A stretch of DNA of 64,000 nucleotides from the NCBI RefSeq assembly GCF_023516495.1, contig NZ_JAMGBC010000001.1, positions 2,008,501 through 2,072,500 of the forward strand, in the 5' to 3' direction. The DNA is from Sphingomonas anseongensis (GTDB lineage: Bacteria > Pseudomonadota > Alphaproteobacteria > Sphingomonadales > Sphingomonadaceae). Made by a program: the position numbers and the translations under genes. Under the pieces are notes generated by a model. It made no database searches and was not told the origin of the DNA. It worked only from the letters and a program-made list of their open reading frames with translations. Positions 1-10,127 of the stretch are shown here, in pieces (the first letter of the stretch is position 1; each line of letters begins with the position of its first letter).

Positions 1-1
1 A

Positions 2-361
2 AATTTGATGGCGCGCTTGCCGAGGTCGCAGCGGACCTGGATTCGCTTCCGTTCGGGCGCCTACAGCGGCGCGAACATGTTCCTGCTGAGCGGCAAGAAG
101 GTGCTTCCCGCGCTCGAAGTGTGGCGGTCGATCGAGCAGGACCGGAAGAAAGCCTGGTCATTGCTGTGGGCGCTTGGACCGCTCACCTTCGTCGGAGCGG
201 CGCTTCGGCTCCGGACCATCCACCAGACGCTCGACAGGATCGGCGAAAGGCTGGGGGCCAAGATCGAGGCGGTCGACCTGTCCGACCCGCTCGCGGCGGT
301 CGACGTCGACAAGCTTGCGGATCACGGGCTGGTCGAGCAGCTGCTCAAGGAACGCTCATGA
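2..361 (+). CDS. NTP-transferase (MobA-like nucleotidyltransferase) family protein, C-terminal part only
   Basis: The frame is open to the left edge, so this is the C-terminal ~119 residues of a longer gene; the first TTG/ATG codons at 5 and 8 are probably internal. The fragment has 'SGANMFLL', a helical stretch with 'LLWALGPLTFVGAALR', and ends with 'AAVDVDKLADHGLVEQLL', which resembles the C-terminal part of MobA-like NTP transferases, where an acidic 'VDVDK' segment binds metal and nucleotide. Family assignment comes from pattern memory of this tail and of its usual partner, a HAD-IB phosphatase, which follows with an ATGA overlap. The pair suggests activated sugar- or polyol-phosphate or phospholipid-headgroup chemistry. 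The substrate cannot be told from the visible part. Confidence 0.6.
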   Translation, partial: NLMARLPRSQRTWIRFRSGAYSGANMFLLSGKKVLPALEVWRSIEQDRKKAWSLLWALGPLTFVGAALRLRTIHQTLDRIGERLGAKIEAVDLSDPLAAVDVDKLADHGLVEQLLKERS

Positions 362-1029
362 GCGACCTTGCGGTCTACGATCTCGACCGGACGATCACCC
401 GTCGCCCGACCTATACCTTGTTCCTGATCCACTGCGCCATGCGGCGGCAGCAATGGCGGCTGGTCTTTGCCCCCGTCGTGGTCCTGGCGATGCTGGCTTA
501 TGCGATGGGCCTGTTCGACCGCGGCCGGCTGAAGGAGATCTGCCAGACGCTGTTGATCGGCCACAAGGTCCATGGGCGAGACCTCATGCCGCTGGCGGAA
601 AGCTTCGCCGATGCGACCATCGCCCGCAACATCCGGCCGGGCGCTCGGAAGGCAATCGAACGTGACCGCTCCGAAGGACGCCGGCTGGTCCTCGCGACCG
701 CATCGTACCGCCTCTACGCCGACGCGATCGCCGAGCGGCTGCATTTCGACGACGTGATCGCCACCGGCTCGGTGATCGGCCTCGATGAGCGCGTGCACGC
801 ACGGATCGAAGGCAGCAATTGCTACGGCGAGGAGAAGATGCGGATGATCGCCGACTGGGTCGAAAAATCAGGCCTGCTCGGCAAGCACGGCCACGTCCGC
901 TTCTATTCCGACCACGCGTCCGACGAGCCGGCGTTCAACTGGTCGGACGAGCCGGTGGCGGTGAACCCGCATGACCGGCTTGCGCGCATGGCCGTGGAGA
1001 GAGGGTGGGCCGTGGAAGATTGGGGCTAA
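358..1029 (+). CDS. HAD-IB family hydrolase (phosphoserine-phosphatase-like)
   Basis: 223-residue HAD-superfamily phosphatase of subclass IB. The nucleophile motif DLDRT (residues 8-12) is followed by a helical cap with hydrophobic segment 36-50. Motif II is 'LATAS' at 112-116, the motif III lysine is K160, and the acidic motif IV is 'YSDHASDEP' at 183-191. All catalytic motifs are present, so it should be active on a small phosphate ester. The start is the ATG that overlaps the previous stop as ATGA, which indicates translational coupling. The last codons (ERGWAVEDWG) recur at 2936-2965 on the far side of the repeat-bounded array, and the stop codon abuts the first repeat copy. The substrate is unknown. 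Confidence 0.85.
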   Translation: MSDLAVYDLDRTITRRPTYTLFLIHCAMRRQQWRLVFAPVVVLAMLAYAMGLFDRGRLKEICQTLLIGHKVHGRDLMPLAESFADATIARNIRPGARKAIERDRSEGRRLVLATASYRLYADAIAERLHFDDVIATGSVIGLDERVHARIEGSNCYGEEKMRMIADWVEKSGLLGKHGHVRFYSDHASDEPAFNWSDEPVAVNPHDRLARMAVERGWAVEDWG

Positions 1030-1081: not shown

Positions 1082-1489
1082 ATGAACACATCAATCCGAG
1101 CAGCTCTGCTGATCCTGATTGCCACCGCAACCTCGTGCACATCAGAACCGCCTGAACTGGCAAAGTCGCAGTGTTCCCGTGTAGGTCAGCGCTTGGGTGA
1201 AACGCCGGTCAAAGGTTTCATCTTTGGTGAACTTGGCACCAAGGTTTTGCTCAACTCATGTCCTGGCGTTCAAGTCCCCATAACTTTCATTGGCGACGCG
1301 CCACCTGAGTTCATGAAGCTGGTGAGTGTTGCGGTTCAGCGGGAAGACGTGCTTGGTTTTGAGGCAGTAGCTAATGGGTTTGTCGTGCAAGAGCGGGACG
1401 GGGATCCGGTGCTCATTCTAACGAGCTTGGACAAGCTACGAGAGGCCCCCAGCATTGTGGCAGCGAGAGAAACCGCGTCAGGGCAATAG
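1082..1489 (+). CDS. Small putative lipoprotein, function unknown
   Basis: 135 residues. The N-terminus is a lipoprotein signal: two early charged/polar residues, a hydrophobic stretch AALLILIATA, then a lipobox ending at Cys19 (ATSC). The mature ~117 residues contain two further cysteines (in 'KSQCSRVG' and 'LNSCPG') that could pair, and a predicted mixed alpha/beta domain. I do not recognise the family. The start ATG at 1082 lies 25 bases after the first repeat and the stop codon directly abuts the second repeat. Base composition looks less GC-rich than the neighbouring housekeeping genes, consistent with acquisition together with the repeats. Coding status is supported by the intact signal peptide and length; function is unassigned. 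Confidence 0.6.
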   Translation: MNTSIRAALLILIATATSCTSEPPELAKSQCSRVGQRLGETPVKGFIFGELGTKVLLNSCPGVQVPITFIGDAPPEFMKLVSVAVQREDVLGFEAVANGFVVQERDGDPVLILTSLDKLREAPSIVAARETASGQ

Positions 1490-1534
1490 TGTCTGGTTTC
1501 CACCCATTGCAGACGTTTGGTTGCTTTCGACCCA
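1490..1534 (+). repeat. Palindromic repeat copy 2 (short form plus partial second unit)
   Basis: Arms GTCTG (1491-1495) and CAGAC (1510-1514) pair perfectly around TTTCCACCCATT. This differs from the GTCCG/CGGAC arms of the long copies by a matched pair of changes. A partial second unit, TTGCTTTCGACCCA, follows at 1521-1534. It begins immediately after the stop of the upstream lipoprotein ORF. Confidence 0.7.
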
Positions 1535-1555
1535 AGTAGGTGCGAGCGGGAAAAT

Positions 1556-1714
1556 GTGTCCCGTTGGTGGCTTGTCGCTCTAGTCCTGACCGCTGCTCTC
1601 GTGCGGGAGCTGATCGTGTGGCTTGGCTATTCCTGGATCGTGGCAACGAGCGTTGCGATCATTTTGATGGTCGCATTCTTTCTGCTGTCGATCCGACGCC
1701 TGCACAAGCGTTGA
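1556..1714 (+). CDS. Tiny two-helix membrane protein, hypothetical
   Basis: 52 residues from a GTG start at 1556. A longer reading from TTG at 1517 would translate the repeat itself and is unlikely. Two hydrophobic segments (roughly residues 5-22 and 25-45, 'WLVALVLTAALV' and 'IVATSVAIILMVAFFLL') are followed by a basic tail, RRLHKR, suggesting a small inner-membrane protein with a cytoplasmic C-terminus. No family is recognised. It occupies one slot of the repeat-bounded array, with its stop 5 bases before the third repeat. There is no strong ribosome binding site, so expression is uncertain. Confidence 0.4.
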   Translation: MSRWWLVALVLTAALVRELIVWLGYSWIVATSVAIILMVAFFLLSIRRLHKR

Positions 1715-1719
1715 CGCCG

Positions 1720-1773
1720 CGTCCGCTTTCCACCCAAAGTTGCCGTGACTGCTTTCGACCCATTGCGGACATT
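1720..1773 (+). repeat. Palindromic repeat copy 3 (long form)
   Basis: Best full-length copy, 54 bases. Outer arms GTCCGC (1721-1726) and GCGGAC (1765-1770) are perfect complements. Inside are two direct subunits, GCTTTCCACCCA and GCTTTCGACCCA, separated by 'AAGTTGCCGTGACT'. It lies between two tiny membrane-protein ORFs. Confidence 0.8.
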
Positions 1774-1798
1774 GGCTGGCCCGACCAATCTACCCTTC

Positions 1799-1957
1799 AT
1801 GCGGATGCCTGGACCGGCGCTTTCGTGCGTCATCATCGCGGCTGTAATTTCAGCGGCCCTAGTAGCGCTGGGCGATACAACTTGGGGTGTTATCGGATTT
1901 GTTGCCTCGGGGCTGTTTTGGGCGGCTCTCTACGTGCTGGTCGGGGGGAAGCGCTAA
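1799..1957 (+). CDS. Tiny two-helix membrane protein, hypothetical
   Basis: 52 residues from ATG 1799; an in-frame upstream start at 1745 lies within the repeat and is rejected. Two hydrophobic segments ('CVIIAAVISAALVAL' and 'VIGFVASGLFWAALYVLV') are joined by a short turn and followed by a GGKR tail. It is similar in size and layout to the ORF at 1556-1714 but not obviously homologous. The stop TAA is directly followed by repeat copy 4. The family is unrecognised, and the ORF is believable mainly because of its position in the array and its clean two-helix pattern. Confidence 0.4.
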   Translation: MRMPGPALSCVIIAAVISAALVALGDTTWGVIGFVASGLFWAALYVLVGGKR

Positions 1958-1987
1958 CGTCCGCTTTCCACCCAAACTTGCCGCGAC
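1958..1987 (+). repeat. Repeat copy 4 (left half only)
   Basis: CGTCCGCTTTCCACCCAAAC continues to TTGCCGCGAC. It matches the left half of the long form and then diverges, so the right arm is missing. It abuts the TAA stop of the preceding ORF. Confidence 0.65.
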
Positions 1988-2026
1988 AGGAATGGCAGGT
2001 GTCAGCTCCGTCGGGTATGTGATGGC

Positions 2027-2314
2027 ATGGGAGACGTGATTGACCTGGCAACCATCCTTGTCGCTGTCGCTATGATTACGATTGGATCATTCACACTTGG
2101 GCGGTTTTCTAGCCGTGTCGCCTCGCCCACTTCTCGTTCAATGCTGTTGGCGATAGGCATTTCAATGCCGTTGCTCGTGGCAGGAGGGCTTTCTGCTTTC
2201 GTCCCACCCGCACGCGAGATGACCTACAATCTTGTGCCTTTTGGGGTAGCAATCCTACTCCTGCCGGTGTCCACAGTGCTGACGTTGTGGGGAAAGGGTG
2301 CCACCCGAAGCTAA
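2027..2314 (+). CDS. Small three-helix membrane protein, hypothetical
   Basis: 95 residues. Three hydrophobic segments are visible, around residues 5-24 ('LATILVAVAMITIGSFTLG'), 40-60 ('LLAIGISMPLLVAGGLSAFV') and 70-88 ('LVPFGVAILLLPVSTVLTL'), with positively charged connecting and terminal regions (GRFSSR, WGKGATRS). No family is recognised. The ATG at 2027 follows a truncated repeat by ~40 bases, and the TAA stop overlaps the first base of repeat copy 5. Of the small ORFs in the array it has the clearest multi-pass architecture, but function is unknown. Confidence 0.5.
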   Translation: MGDVIDLATILVAVAMITIGSFTLGRFSSRVASPTSRSMLLAIGISMPLLVAGGLSAFVPPAREMTYNLVPFGVAILLLPVSTVLTLWGKGATRS

Positions 2315-2374: not shown

Positions 2375-2860
2375 CTAGCGCTTACACTCGCCGAAGTAGC
2401 TGCCACAGGGTGGCTCAATCTGTTTCTTCCAATCTGTTTCGATTGTTGGTGAACCATGTCCGCGTAAGGTGAAGTCCACTCGACCATCGCCGATGCCACT
2501 AATTGCCACGCCGTAGGTTGAGCCAGCACGGAGTGCGGGCTGCCCTTTCGACACGAACCCAGCGATTGGCATACCGATGCGCAACGGCATCGTTACTTCG
2601 AGGCAAGAATGATAGATCGGCCCGGCCTCATTCTTATCCAATGTCCACAACAACTTGGACGCATCGAATAGCTCAACCCGCCGGATGCAGTACGATTTGT
2701 CTTGAAGACCGACGAGCCGCCACAAGCTCCACGGGAAGTCCACGACAAGCTGGCCGTTCCGCCATACAACCACGATGTCTCGGCTTGGTGGCTGACATGA
2801 AGTCAGTGCCATAGCCAGAACGGCGAGCGATGCTGCGCGACTGAGCCGACCCATCGTCAA
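2375..2860 (-). CDS. Small putative lipoprotein, function unknown (reverse-oriented member of the array)
   Basis: 161 residues from ATG at 2860. An N-terminal signal with basic residues (GRLSR) and the hydrophobic stretch 'AASLAVLAMAL' leads to a lipobox ending at Cys22 (ALTSC). The mature part contains Trp-rich beta-like segments ('VVVWRNGQLVVDFPWSLWRL') and four further cysteines (including CIRR, SCLE, PCGS, GECKR), suggesting disulfides in the periplasm. The family is unrecognised. It is the only ORF of the array on the minus strand and is packed between repeat copies 5 and 6. Composition is less GC-rich than the flanking genes. Confidence 0.55.
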   Translation of the reverse strand: MTMGRLSRAASLAVLAMALTSCQPPSRDIVVVWRNGQLVVDFPWSLWRLVGLQDKSYCIRRVELFDASKLLWTLDKNEAGPIYHSCLEVTMPLRIGMPIAGFVSKGQPALRAGSTYGVAISGIGDGRVDFTLRGHGSPTIETDWKKQIEPPCGSYFGECKR

Positions 2861-2891: not shown

Positions 2892-2932
2892 ATGTCCGTT
2901 TTCCACCCAAAGTTGCCGTGACTGCTTTCGAC
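2892..2932 (+). repeat. Repeat copy 6 (right end truncated)
   Basis: ATGTCCGTTTTCCACCCAAA and the following interior match the long form up to 'CTGCTTTCGAC', where the sequence switches to the second copy of the HAD-IB 3' end. The right arm is absent. Confidence 0.75.
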
Positions 2933-2971
2933 GCCGAGCGGGGCTGGGCGGTCGAGGATTGGGGGCGTTAG
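2933..2971 (+). pseudogene. Duplicate of the 3' tip of the HAD-IB hydrolase gene
   Basis: Read in frame, this stretch encodes A-E-R-G-W-A-V-E-D-W-G-R-stop. Ten of these residues (ERGWAVEDWG) are identical to the C-terminus of the HAD-IB protein ending at 1029. Over those ten codons the two copies differ at seven positions by eye, all synonymous. The fragment has no start of its own and is fused to a truncated repeat, so it is a remnant. It marks either a second, diverged HAD allele or the original gene end displaced by the array. Confidence 0.65.
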
Positions 2972-3051: not shown

Positions 3052-3435
3052 ATGTTTCGCCACGACATCAGTGTCGCCGAACAGGACATCGACACCATGG
3101 GGCACGTCAACAATTCCGTGTACCTTCGGTGGGTTCAGGACGCGGTCGTCCATTACTGGCAGAGCATGGCCCCAGCCGAGGCCGTCGCCAAGCACCTCTG
3201 GGTCGCGCTCAAGCATGAGATCACCTATCGCAAGCCGACCTTCCTGAACGACCGGGTCGTCGCCGAAGTGATCGCCGAAAAGGTGCACGGCGCGCGGAGC
3301 TTTTTCACCACAGTCGTGAAGCGCGGCGAAGAGGTTCTTGCCGAGGTGCGGAGCTCGTGGTGTTGCCTCGACGCGGTAACGATGCGTCCGACGCGGCTAG
3401 GCCAGGACGTGGTCGCCCGCTTCCTTACGGACTAG
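3052..3435 (+). CDS. Acyl-CoA thioesterase, 4-hydroxybenzoyl-CoA thioesterase (hotdog) family
   Basis: 127 residues, the usual length of a single hotdog-fold thioesterase. The signature Asp14-x-x-Gly-His-Val-Asn-Asn ('DTMGHVNNSVYLRW') matches the 4HBT/YbgC motif, in which the Asp activates the attack on the thioester. The ATG at 3052 is preceded by 'GAGGAGG', a good ribosome binding site. The substrate is unassigned; members hydrolyse short to medium or aromatic acyl-CoAs in the cytoplasm. The gene converges on the PLP enzyme downstream, the two stop codons sharing the 4 bases CTAG. Confidence 0.85.
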   Translation: MFRHDISVAEQDIDTMGHVNNSVYLRWVQDAVVHYWQSMAPAEAVAKHLWVALKHEITYRKPTFLNDRVVAEVIAEKVHGARSFFTTVVKRGEEVLAEVRSSWCCLDAVTMRPTRLGQDVVARFLTD

Positions 3436-4742
3436 ACCGCTTCGAGAGCGTTCGCGAAGTCGGCGATGAGGTCGTCGGCATTCTCGACGCCGATGGAGAT
3501 CCGCACCAGGTTCGGAGTGATCCCAAGCGCGGCCTTGCGGTCGTCGGGCACCGACAGGTGGGTCATCGCAGCCGGAGCGCTGGCGAGGGTCTCGGTGCCG
3601 CCAAGGCTGACCGCGAGATGCGCGATCTGCAGGGAGTCGAGGAAGGCGAACGCCTCCTTCTCTCCGCCCTTCAGGTAGAGGGAGAAGGTGGATCCGGCGC
3701 CGGTGCAGTGGCGGTTGTAGATGTCGGCCTGGCGCGACCCCTCTTCGAGGAAGCCGAGGTAGCCGACCTTCTCGACCTTGGGATGATCGCGGAGGAAGGC
3801 GCAGACTTTTTCGGCATTCCTTCCCGCCTTCTCCATCCTGAGCTCGAGAGTTTCGAGACTGCGCAGTAGCATCCAGGCGGTGTTGGGGTCGCAAATGGTG
3901 CCGATCGTGTTGCGCATGCTGCGCACCTGGTTGATCAGGTCCTTGCGGCCGACGAGCCCGCCGGCGACGAGATCGCTGTGCCCGCCGGCATATTTGGTCA
4001 GGCTGTAGATGCTTAGGTCAGCGCCTTGCGCGAGCGGCTTCGCCCACAACGGCCCCAGGAAGGTGTTGTCCATCGCGATCGGCGGCAGTTCGTCCGGCTT
4101 GAAAGCCGCCTTCCGCGCTGCGGCGACGGCTTCCACGTCGACAAGCTGGTTGGTCGGGTTCGCCGGGCTTTCGAGATAGATGAGCGCGACCCGGCCCATG
4201 GTCTTAGCGCGCTCGATGGTCGCGTCGATCTCCTCGCGCGTCGAGCCTGAGGGGAAGTCGACCCACGACACGCCGAACTGGCTGAGGATCTTGGCGATCA
4301 AAGTCTCGGTCGCCGCGTAGAGCGGGCCGGAGTGGACGACGACATCGCCGGGGCGGACGAAGGTGAGCAGGAGCGTCGCGATTGCCGACATTCCGCTGGA
4401 GAAGGACAAAGCGTCGTCGGCGTCCTCCCACAGGCTCAGGCGATCTTCGAGGATCTCCTGGTTCGGGCCGTTGAAGCGGGAGTAAATCAGGCCCTCCGCG
4501 CCGCCGGGGCGCTTGCCGGTCACGCCTTCAAAGAAGCGCTTGCCCGCGGCCGCATTCTCGAAAACAAAGGTGGAGGTGAGGAAGATGGGCGGTTTCAGCG
4601 AGCCTTCGCTGAGCTCCGGGTCGAACCCGTAGCCCATCATCAGGGTCGAGGGGCTGAGCTGGTGATTGCCGATCTTGGTCGGCGATTGCTTGGGCCGGCG
4701 CTTCTGCGTTCCGCTAAGCTCGTTTTCGTTTTCGTTCGTCAT
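3432..4742 (-). CDS. Cystathionine gamma-synthase / methionine gamma-lyase family PLP enzyme
   Basis: 436 residues of the Cys/Met-metabolism PLP family. The PLP lysine is K250 in 'SLTKYAGGHSD', the cofactor-stacking region is 'SSGMSAI' (115-121), D225 in 'MDNTF' contacts the pyridine nitrogen, and the phosphate-binding Y/R pair from the neighbouring subunit is 'YSRF' (87-90). It is somewhat longer than the ~390-residue enzymes because of a charged N-terminal extension (about 30 residues) and an insertion near 68-86. Such enzymes do gamma-replacement or elimination on homoserine esters, cystathionine or methionine. The sequence alone does not fix which reaction. Standing alone on the minus strand, it gives no pathway context. 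Confidence 0.85.
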   Translation of the reverse strand: MTNENENELSGTQKRRPKQSPTKIGNHQLSPSTLMMGYGFDPELSEGSLKPPIFLTSTFVFENAAAGKRFFEGVTGKRPGGAEGLIYSRFNGPNQEILEDRLSLWEDADDALSFSSGMSAIATLLLTFVRPGDVVVHSGPLYAATETLIAKILSQFGVSWVDFPSGSTREEIDATIERAKTMGRVALIYLESPANPTNQLVDVEAVAAARKAAFKPDELPPIAMDNTFLGPLWAKPLAQGADLSIYSLTKYAGGHSDLVAGGLVGRKDLINQVRSMRNTIGTICDPNTAWMLLRSLETLELRMEKAGRNAEKVCAFLRDHPKVEKVGYLGFLEEGSRQADIYNRHCTGAGSTFSLYLKGGEKEAFAFLDSLQIAHLAVSLGGTETLASAPAAMTHLSVPDDRKAALGITPNLVRISIGVENADDLIADFANALEAV

Positions 4743-9114: not shown

Positions 9115-10127
9115 CGATCAAGTCCGCGCCGCCGAATCACCCGAAGGTCGAGCATGGCCGGATCGGCGTCCTGCTGATCAACCTCGGCACCCCCGACGCT
9201 CCGGAACCGGGCGCAGTGCGGCGGTATCTCGCCGAATTCCTGACGGACCCGAGAGTGATCGAAATCCCGCAATGGCTATGGCGGCCAATCCTTCACGGCG
9301 TCGTGCTCCGCACCCGGCCGAAGAAGTCCGCTCATGCCTATCGCCAGGTGTGGAGCGAAGAGGGCTCGCCGCTCGCTGCGATCACCAGGCGTCAGGCGGT
9401 GGCGCTGCAAAAGCGCCTTGGCGCGGACGTGAGGGTCGACTTTGCGATGCGCTACGGCAACCCGGGAATCGAGGCCGCCGTCGAGAAGATGGTGAAGGCA
9501 GGCTGCGACCGAATTTTCGCGGCGCCGCTCTACCCGCAATATTGCGCGGCCACGACTGCAAGCGCGCTCGATGCGCTGTTCGCGGCGGTCGCATCCATGC
9601 GGCGACAGCCGGCGCTTCGCACCTTGCCGCCGTACCACGATGACCCTCTCTACCTCGGTGCGCTTCGCACCAGCATCGAGCGGCAGTTGAAGGCGCTCGA
9701 TTTCGAGCCCCAGCGGCTCCTTTTGAGCTTCCACGGAATGCCCAAGCGGACACTGGAGCTTGGTGACCCCTATCACTGCCATTGCCAGAAGACGGCCCGG
9801 CTGCTCGACGAGCAGCTATCGATCCCGACCGATATCGCCTTCCAGTCGCGTTTCGGGCGAGCGAAATGGCTGGAGCCTGCGACGGACACGACGCTCGCAG
9901 CTTATCCGTCGAAAGGAGTCACCCGGATAGCAATCGCCGCTCCGGGCTTCTCCGCCGATTGCGTCGAAACGCTGGAGGAGCTGGAGATCCGCGGCCGCGA
10001 GACCTTTGTCGCCGCGGGCGGCGAGCGCTTTGCCCGGCTCGATTGCCTCAACGATTCGCCCGAGGGCATGGAGATGCTCGAAGAGCTCGTCCGCCGCGAA
10101 CTTGAAGGCTGGCTCCCAGCCGCCTAA
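9111..10127 (+). CDS. hemH: Ferrochelatase
   Basis: 338 residues, standard length. Inserts Fe2+ into protoporphyrin IX as the last step of protoheme synthesis. The signature 'LLLSFHGMP' with the metal-binding His is followed by 'DPYHCHCQKTARLL'. 'VLLINLGTPDAPEP' at the N-terminus and 'APGFSADCVETLEE' near the C-terminus complete the pattern. The chosen start is TTG 9111, which overlaps the acyl-CoA ligase stop (TTGA). No ATG lies in a better position, and the long frame upstream is only the shadow of the ligase gene. The C-terminal Cys of '[2Fe-2S]' ferrochelatases is not evident. Confidence 0.92.
   Translation: MTIKSAPPNHPKVEHGRIGVLLINLGTPDAPEPGAVRRYLAEFLTDPRVIEIPQWLWRPILHGVVLRTRPKKSAHAYRQVWSEEGSPLAAITRRQAVALQKRLGADVRVDFAMRYGNPGIEAAVEKMVKAGCDRIFAAPLYPQYCAATTASALDALFAAVASMRRQPALRTLPPYHDDPLYLGALRTSIERQLKALDFEPQRLLLSFHGMPKRTLELGDPYHCHCQKTARLLDEQLSIPTDIAFQSRFGRAKWLEPATDTTLAAYPSKGVTRIAIAAPGFSADCVETLEELEIRGRETFVAAGGERFARLDCLNDSPEGMEMLEELVRRELEGWLPAA

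Follow-up and report, generated by a model that had tools for sequence, protein, structure and literature searches.

The last ten codons of a HAD hydrolase gene are present twice in the 64,000-nucleotide stretch of DNA analysed here (the window), once at the end of the gene itself and once on the far side of an array of repeats, where they are fused to a broken repeat. We consider it somewhat probable that the HAD gene and the array form a single imported tract and that the allele of a relative was swapped in by recombination. The observations behind this reading are the two tips, the broken repeat R6, a change of affinity between the NTP-transferase gene and the HAD gene, the lack of an array or a second tip in 34 gaps of other genomes, and the rarity of the repeat core in this genome. 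On this evidence the HAD tip would record the way in which a foreign gene array entered the chromosome, marking the join, and it suggests that an allele of a host gene travelled with the cargo.

The two HAD tips and the repeat junction

The window (C1:2008501-2072500) belongs to a genome of 2.2 Mb, G000. The features of the locus, in window coordinates, are as follows.

1..361, + strand: 3' part of a MobA-like NTP-transferase gene (PF12804), which starts at about -406, before the window
358..1029, + strand: HAD hydrolase gene (PF12710), the putative incoming allele
997..1029, + strand: tip copy 1, ERGWAVEDWG-TAA
1024..1060, + strand: repeat R1, short form, a hairpin with the HAD stop codon in its left arm
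1082..1489, + strand: cassette ORF1, 135 aa, no Pfam family, with a repeat-bounded homologue in G022
1487..1534, + strand: repeat R2, variant
1517..1714, + strand: cassette ORF2, up to 65 aa, start uncertain
1715..1779, + strand: repeat R3, full length
1799..1957, + strand: cassette ORF3, for which a longer start at 1745 falls inside R3
1954..1992, + strand: repeat R4, truncated
2027..2314, + strand: cassette ORF4, 95 aa
2310..2373, + strand: repeat R5, full length
2375..2860, - strand: cassette ORF5, 161 aa, with a 53% homologue in G015 that is not repeat-bounded there
2892..2932, + strand: repeat R6, broken off after TTTCGAC at the junction
2933..2971, + strand: tip copy 2, A-ERGWAVEDWG-R-TAG, the putative remnant of the resident HAD gene
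3052..3435, + strand: 4HBT-type thioesterase gene, relocated here
3432..4742, - strand: Cys/Met metabolism PLP-enzyme gene (PF01053), the presumed ancestral convergent neighbour of HAD

The end of the NTP-transferase gene overlaps the start of the HAD gene by ATGA. Direct reading of the sequence confirmed what a preliminary description of the window had reported, namely that the 3' tip of the HAD gene is repeated beyond the array. The gene (358-1029) ends in ...VERGWAVEDWG-TAA, and tip copy 2 (2933-2971) reads GCC GAG CGG GGC TGG GCG GTC GAG GAT TGG GGG CGT TAG, encoding A-ERGWAVEDWG-R-stop. Within the 30-nt cores (997-1026 and 2936-2965), 7 of 30 bases are different while all ten residues agree, every change being silent, again as described. 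When sets of seven substitutions were placed at random in tip copy 1, 0 of 200,000 sets were all-synonymous. Because all seven changes are synonymous, both tips appear to have evolved as coding sequence, which upholds the earlier proposal; with 7 of 30 bases different between the flanking copies, the pair is indeed no target-site duplication. Outside the two tips, the best match to ERGWAVEDWG in the six frames of the window agreed at only 5 of ten residues.

Between species, the same ten HAD codons are a median of 7 bases apart (31 relatives), and all ten tip residues are common to only 1.7% of species pairs. Judged by these comparisons, the two tips are as far apart as two species and their identical protein is unusual; they may derive from one close clade, a point against the import. 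Recombination between diverged alleles, as suggested at the outset, is the best reading of the tips. Flanks of arrays were also compared with one another. Among 514 upstream/downstream pairs from the same locus, the pair that includes tip copy 2 scored 17 and the next best 12; no other array in this set has a comparable tip duplication, and the scar is a single case. Of 13,492 cross-locus flank pairs taken as a control, one likewise scored 17, with the 99.9th percentile at 13. The similarity of the tip DNA taken alone is striking, not unheard of; the ten codons with identical residues make the match secure.

A search of 61 genus genomes for HAD was positive in 59, each with a single full-length match; none of these 59 has a second full-length HAD, the extra matches being partial and weak. 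G000 has a single HAD match, and two tandem HAD genes, which had been named as a possible source of both ends, are rejected. Tip copy 2 is a HAD fragment in a genome with one HAD gene. We give hardly any weight to a tandem HAD duplication that was later cut down to the tip by deletion and array growth: it would account for two tips with identical protein, but there is one HAD match in G000 and no second full-length copy in the 59 genomes, and seven silent changes in 30 bases, the between-species median, are too many for a recent event.

At the junction, R6 stops after TTTCGAC (2932) and the HAD codons of tip copy 2 start at once. The 12 bases expected next in R6 agree with tip copy 2 at 5 positions, including GCGG, and by eye there is no long homology. 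At the opposite end of the array, the HAD stop codon TAA belongs to the first repeat, R1 (GCTAATGTC...). This short form folds into a strong 13-bp hairpin (-20.1 kcal/mol, z -6.4); folding of the longer repeat forms was not clearly beyond that of shuffled sequences.

We propose the following course of events. Each tip would be the 3' end of a different HAD allele. The resident order would have been NTP-transferase, HAD allele a (ending AERGWAVEDWGR), thioesterase and PLP enzyme, with the thioesterase already in place. DNA of a related lineage would have entered the cell by uptake, bearing HAD allele b and, at its stop, the repeat-bounded cassettes, allele and array in one piece. Homologous recombination near the HAD start would have replaced almost all of allele a with the incoming allele b, and the other end would have been joined illegitimately, R6 being severed at TTTCGAC and attached to the twelve codons with which allele a ended. 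G000 has a gene for a protein with a ComEC-type competence domain; such domains were matched in 10 of 14 control genomes too, and the gene permits DNA uptake but does not show it.

Events of this shape have a counterpart. PMC3240628 describes homology-facilitated illegitimate recombination (HFIR) of incoming DNA as having one homologous and one illegitimate end. Such a pair of ends would explain a whole-gene swap together with a leftover tip, and a junction of the illegitimate kind is found here, the cut R6 being joined directly to HAD codons. The present case differs in that the event is reconstructed from one genome, not observed.

Affinities of the HAD gene and its neighbours

The NTP-transferase is 74.5% identical to that of G015 and 73.5% identical to that of G261 (locus L062, matched to this genome by its identical PLP sequence), and at most 57.6% identical to all others compared. 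The order is different for the HAD protein, which is 85% identical to that of G023, 78% to L061, 74% to G015 and 71% to G261. In the NTP-transferase tree G000 joined G015 (support 97/86) inside a clade with G261 (100/100), and in the PLP tree it again joined G015 (93/94), whereas the HAD tree placed it with G023 (95/89). A G000+G023 grouping was rejected by both the NTP-transferase (p 0.00019) and the PLP enzyme (p 0.0057). In AU tests on HAD alone there was no rejection of G000+G015 (p 0.094), of G000+G261 (p 0.10) or of all three together (p 0.08), which counts against the reading of an imported HAD. Diagnostic residues numbered 8 for G023 vs 59 for G015+G261 in the NTP-transferase and 20 vs 2 in HAD (Fisher p 1.4e-11 for the contrast), where the G015+G261 class is the stricter one, since two genomes must agree.

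In windows of DNA identity, the affinity to G015 and G261 ends at about 350-470. HAD DNA identity is a weak signal (G023 78.9%, G261 75.9%, G015 75.8%), and of nine compared, G261 came closest in the last 120-base window of the gene (890-1009). Most genes further upstream are a little nearer to G261 than to G023 or L061; in one exception G023 is 1.5 points higher. The species-tree baseline is assumed from neighbouring genes. Because the NTP-transferase and the PLP enzyme side with G015 and HAD sides with G023, HAD appears to be the gene that does not fit, set between flanks that agree with each other. The preliminary description had placed the insertion of the array at or near the gene end. 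As to position this was correct, for the array starts exactly at the HAD stop codon, but the event looks larger than an insertion there, with the whole HAD gene seemingly swapped, given that its tree conflicts with those of both neighbours.

A mirror image of these events has a low but appreciable probability. Here the HAD gene with tip 1 and the array would be resident, and a fragment with the tail of another HAD, the thioesterase and the PLP end would be the newcomer, with an illegitimate join at R6 and a homologous one inside the PLP gene. The thioesterase does not stand in its usual place, sits on a long branch in its tree (0.44) and adjoins tip 2, all of which suits an incoming right flank. 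Against this, the PLP enzyme sides with G015, just like the upstream gene, so that the right flank looks resident and HAD discordant, and outside the array the repeat is scarce in G000, though also in near relatives.

Base differences between the tips and these relatives are 6 (tip 1) and 5 (tip 2) to G023, 8 and 4 to G261, and 13 and 8 to G015. Tip 2 is putatively the resident tip; base counts alone do not sort the tips by lineage. Tip 2 and G261 have in common that Gly is encoded by GGG and that one additional codon stands ahead of the stop; an extra codon precedes the HAD stop in 3 of 31 relatives (L010, L018, L062). Of the 25 Arg codons of HAD, one is AGA, and it lies in tip 1; this codon accounts for 6 of 423 Arg codons in seven sampled ORFs, two of which (702 and 860 aa) show unusual GC3 and are perhaps not real genes.

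Phage 21 and e14 integrate in the 3' end of icd and bring their own replacement tip. Like these islands, the present locus has two synonymous 3' ends around foreign DNA; it differs in that no integrase was seen in the insert (Pfam search of the five ORFs) and in that affinity changes at the HAD start. That an island-like array entered the HAD 3' end with tip 1 as its replacement tip, leaving tip 2 as the displaced resident end, we regard as quite improbable. Insertions of this type leave two 3' ends that differ synonymously only, and the sole AGA of HAD falls in tip 1, which also speaks for this reading. However, no integrase was seen in the insert, where no ORF reaches the cut-off of a Pfam family, the other arrays tested are without a comparable tip duplication, and the affinity switch lies at the start of HAD, not at its end.

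Among the genus genomes (61 for HAD, 71 for array DNA and ORFs), no donor with this HAD allele and the array was present among the matches listed, which counts against the import. This lack of a donor or intermediate would fit some other multi-step history, such as a donor that already had both tips, or a HAD swap first and the array later; we judge such a history unlikely, as it needs more events.

The HAD/PLP gap and the thioesterase in the genus

RGWAVEDWG-stop or a near variant ends HAD in the 30 loci read. HAD and PLP lie on one contig in 56 genus genomes, and the gap between them, measured from aligned ends, is at most 50 bp in 20, 51-300 bp in 12 and more than 300 bp in 24 (largest 6,392 bp). 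In the tightest pairs (L163, L164) the convergent HAD and PLP stop codons overlap, which we take as the ancestral state. The check proposed in the preliminary description, whether the thioesterase directly follows HAD, does not fit the relatives; in uninterrupted ones the gene found there is the convergent PLP-enzyme gene.

The HAD/PLP gaps of 34 other genomes were read (38 loci minus L152 of G053, where the HAD end was missed, L163 and L164, which have no gap, and the present locus). None of them contains an array or a second tip, and none has a repeat at E < 0.05. By eye, part of the repeat (CCATTGCGGACA) lies just 3' of HAD in L005 and L014; L014 and L063 seem to be one and the same record.

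Cargo was compared in 23 gaps of more than 300 bp, this locus included. The longest ORF matches another gap in 11 of them and none in 12, which points to a conserved convergent gene pair, HAD and PLP, whose gap takes up different genes across the genus. Five related genomes (G021, G020, G017, G060 and G011; loci L144 and L146-L149) have gap cargo in common, with protein matches of 72-86% between gaps; because these relatives share it, cargo can persist through speciation. The gap of G261 spans 3.2 kb (L062:8672-11910) and has other genes, by eye one BON/LysM-like and one of 777 aa that is TIR/TPR-like.

The minimal mobile elements of Neisseria, as presented in PMC3082526, consist of two conserved genes with whole-gene cargo that differs between genomes. 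HAD and PLP with their differing cargo across species have the same arrangement. The cases differ in that the comparison here is at species level only and in that the cargo includes a repeat array. The analysis of breakpoints covered the present locus.

A match to the thioesterase was obtained for 69 of 71 genomes; in 62 its identity is at least 63%, one of these 62 being partial. In the relatives read it lies at other chromosomal places. Because no HAD tail was seen by eye in the 110 bases upstream of the thioesterase in 29 other loci, its position is peculiar to G000 among the loci read. Its stop overlaps the PLP stop via CTAG, like the HAD stop in the tightest pairs. The relocated thioesterase needs a separate event, and this counts against the import of HAD and array that we favour.

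Repeat arrays here and across the genus

Between the two tips there are six repeats in one orientation, two of them full, one short and three truncated or variant. GC content of the array is 56.2%, vs 64.8% for the window, and its five ORFs gave no Pfam match that reached the cut-off. The repeat core has 5 copies in G000, of which 3 are inside this array; the two solitary cores are at C1:1368187-1368208 and C1:1481333-1481354. This rarity is weak evidence for a foreign array, because G015 (5 cores) and G023 (3 cores), near relatives, are repeat-poor too. Some homologues of the cassette ORFs are bounded by repeats as well. The ORF1 homologue in G022 has repeats on both sides and lies at another chromosomal place, as does a weak match to ORF5 in G009. 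The ORF3 homologue in G022, a weak match with internal stops, likewise has repeats on both sides. A homologue in G004 has a repeat on one side, and three other homologue loci are without repeats.

Copies of the 22-base repeat core, with no more than 2 mismatches allowed, were counted in 71 genus genomes. There are 0 to 81 per genome, 60 genomes having the core, and a reversed control gave 0 matches. An exact 20-base core occurred in 6 of 199 genomes drawn from the family. In array loci, which were chosen for holding repeats, 120 of 131 repeats follow the majority orientation of their locus, a count that takes in the six of this window. Outside the window, the longest ORF fills at least 80% of 56 of 76 intervals, vs 17% of 1,520 random placements, and in 49 of 76 the stop of this longest ORF is no more than 15 bases away from a repeat, vs 14% of random placements; since the placements were not aligned to genes, this control shows that repeats mark gene borders, not that units move. 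Long head-to-tail arrays with one small ORF per interval were seen in L084, L086-L088, L096 and L097, and at 1024-2932 of the window. An array layout of head-to-tail repeats with a single small ORF per interval is common in the genus, and it is more unusual than the HAD scar.

The arrays resemble integron cassette arrays in just these respects, the head-to-tail repeats in one orientation and the one small ORF per interval. The core motifs of attC are RYYYAAC ... GTTRRRY. Here the 5' motif was present in 1 of 64 full repeats, the 3' motif in 3 of 64 and both in 0 of 64. IntI (TIGR02249) was above cut-off in 0 of 71 genomes; all 71 gave weaker, tyrosine-recombinase matches to this model, the best of about 87-102 bits (G048, G264, G003 and G262), two of these four in two pieces. 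ORFs differ from integron cassettes in being about equally on both strands, 40 of 76 running with the repeats and 36 against them. An integron is ruled out by the attC and IntI tests. REP elements driven by RAYT were not supported either, the Y1 transposase family PF01797 being found in 3 of 71 genomes (G055, G005, G034) and in none of the three repeat-richest (G262, G026, G050).

Tentatively, it is possible that Sphingomicrobium-type genomes carry an undescribed system, in which palindromic repeats of about 30-60 bp in head-to-tail order hold one small gene per interval. Such genes would run in either direction with the stop abutting a repeat, and the system would make do without an integron integrase or attC. 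Single cassettes or entire arrays would pass from species to species and could enter at the stop codon of a conserved gene, taking an allele of a host gene with them; one such transfer would have left the HAD tip as its scar. In open-licence papers, we found nothing on such repeat/cassette arrays in sphingomonads. Should the cassettes be mobile on their own, they would represent one more, as yet undescribed, means of gene collection.

Some minor observations concern the surroundings of arrays. A search of Rfam gave no repeat family, and the only match, in three loci (L071, L088, L096), was a tRNA; in L088 the tRNA (9724-9812) lies within the same 10 kb as the array. Two Phage_integrase matches above cut-off lie near the array of L086 (8374-9585 and 2114-3229), and one below cut-off is in L088 (6015-6854); the other 27 of 30 chosen larger ORFs around arrays had no Phage_integrase match. 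When the same arrays were compared between the close pair G010 and G041, only partial flank matches were obtained. One is between L090:8068-9858 and L183:957-2742, where L183 has no repeat at E < 0.01, and in the other the two genomes share one array flank (L088:1-717 and L178:8783-9492).
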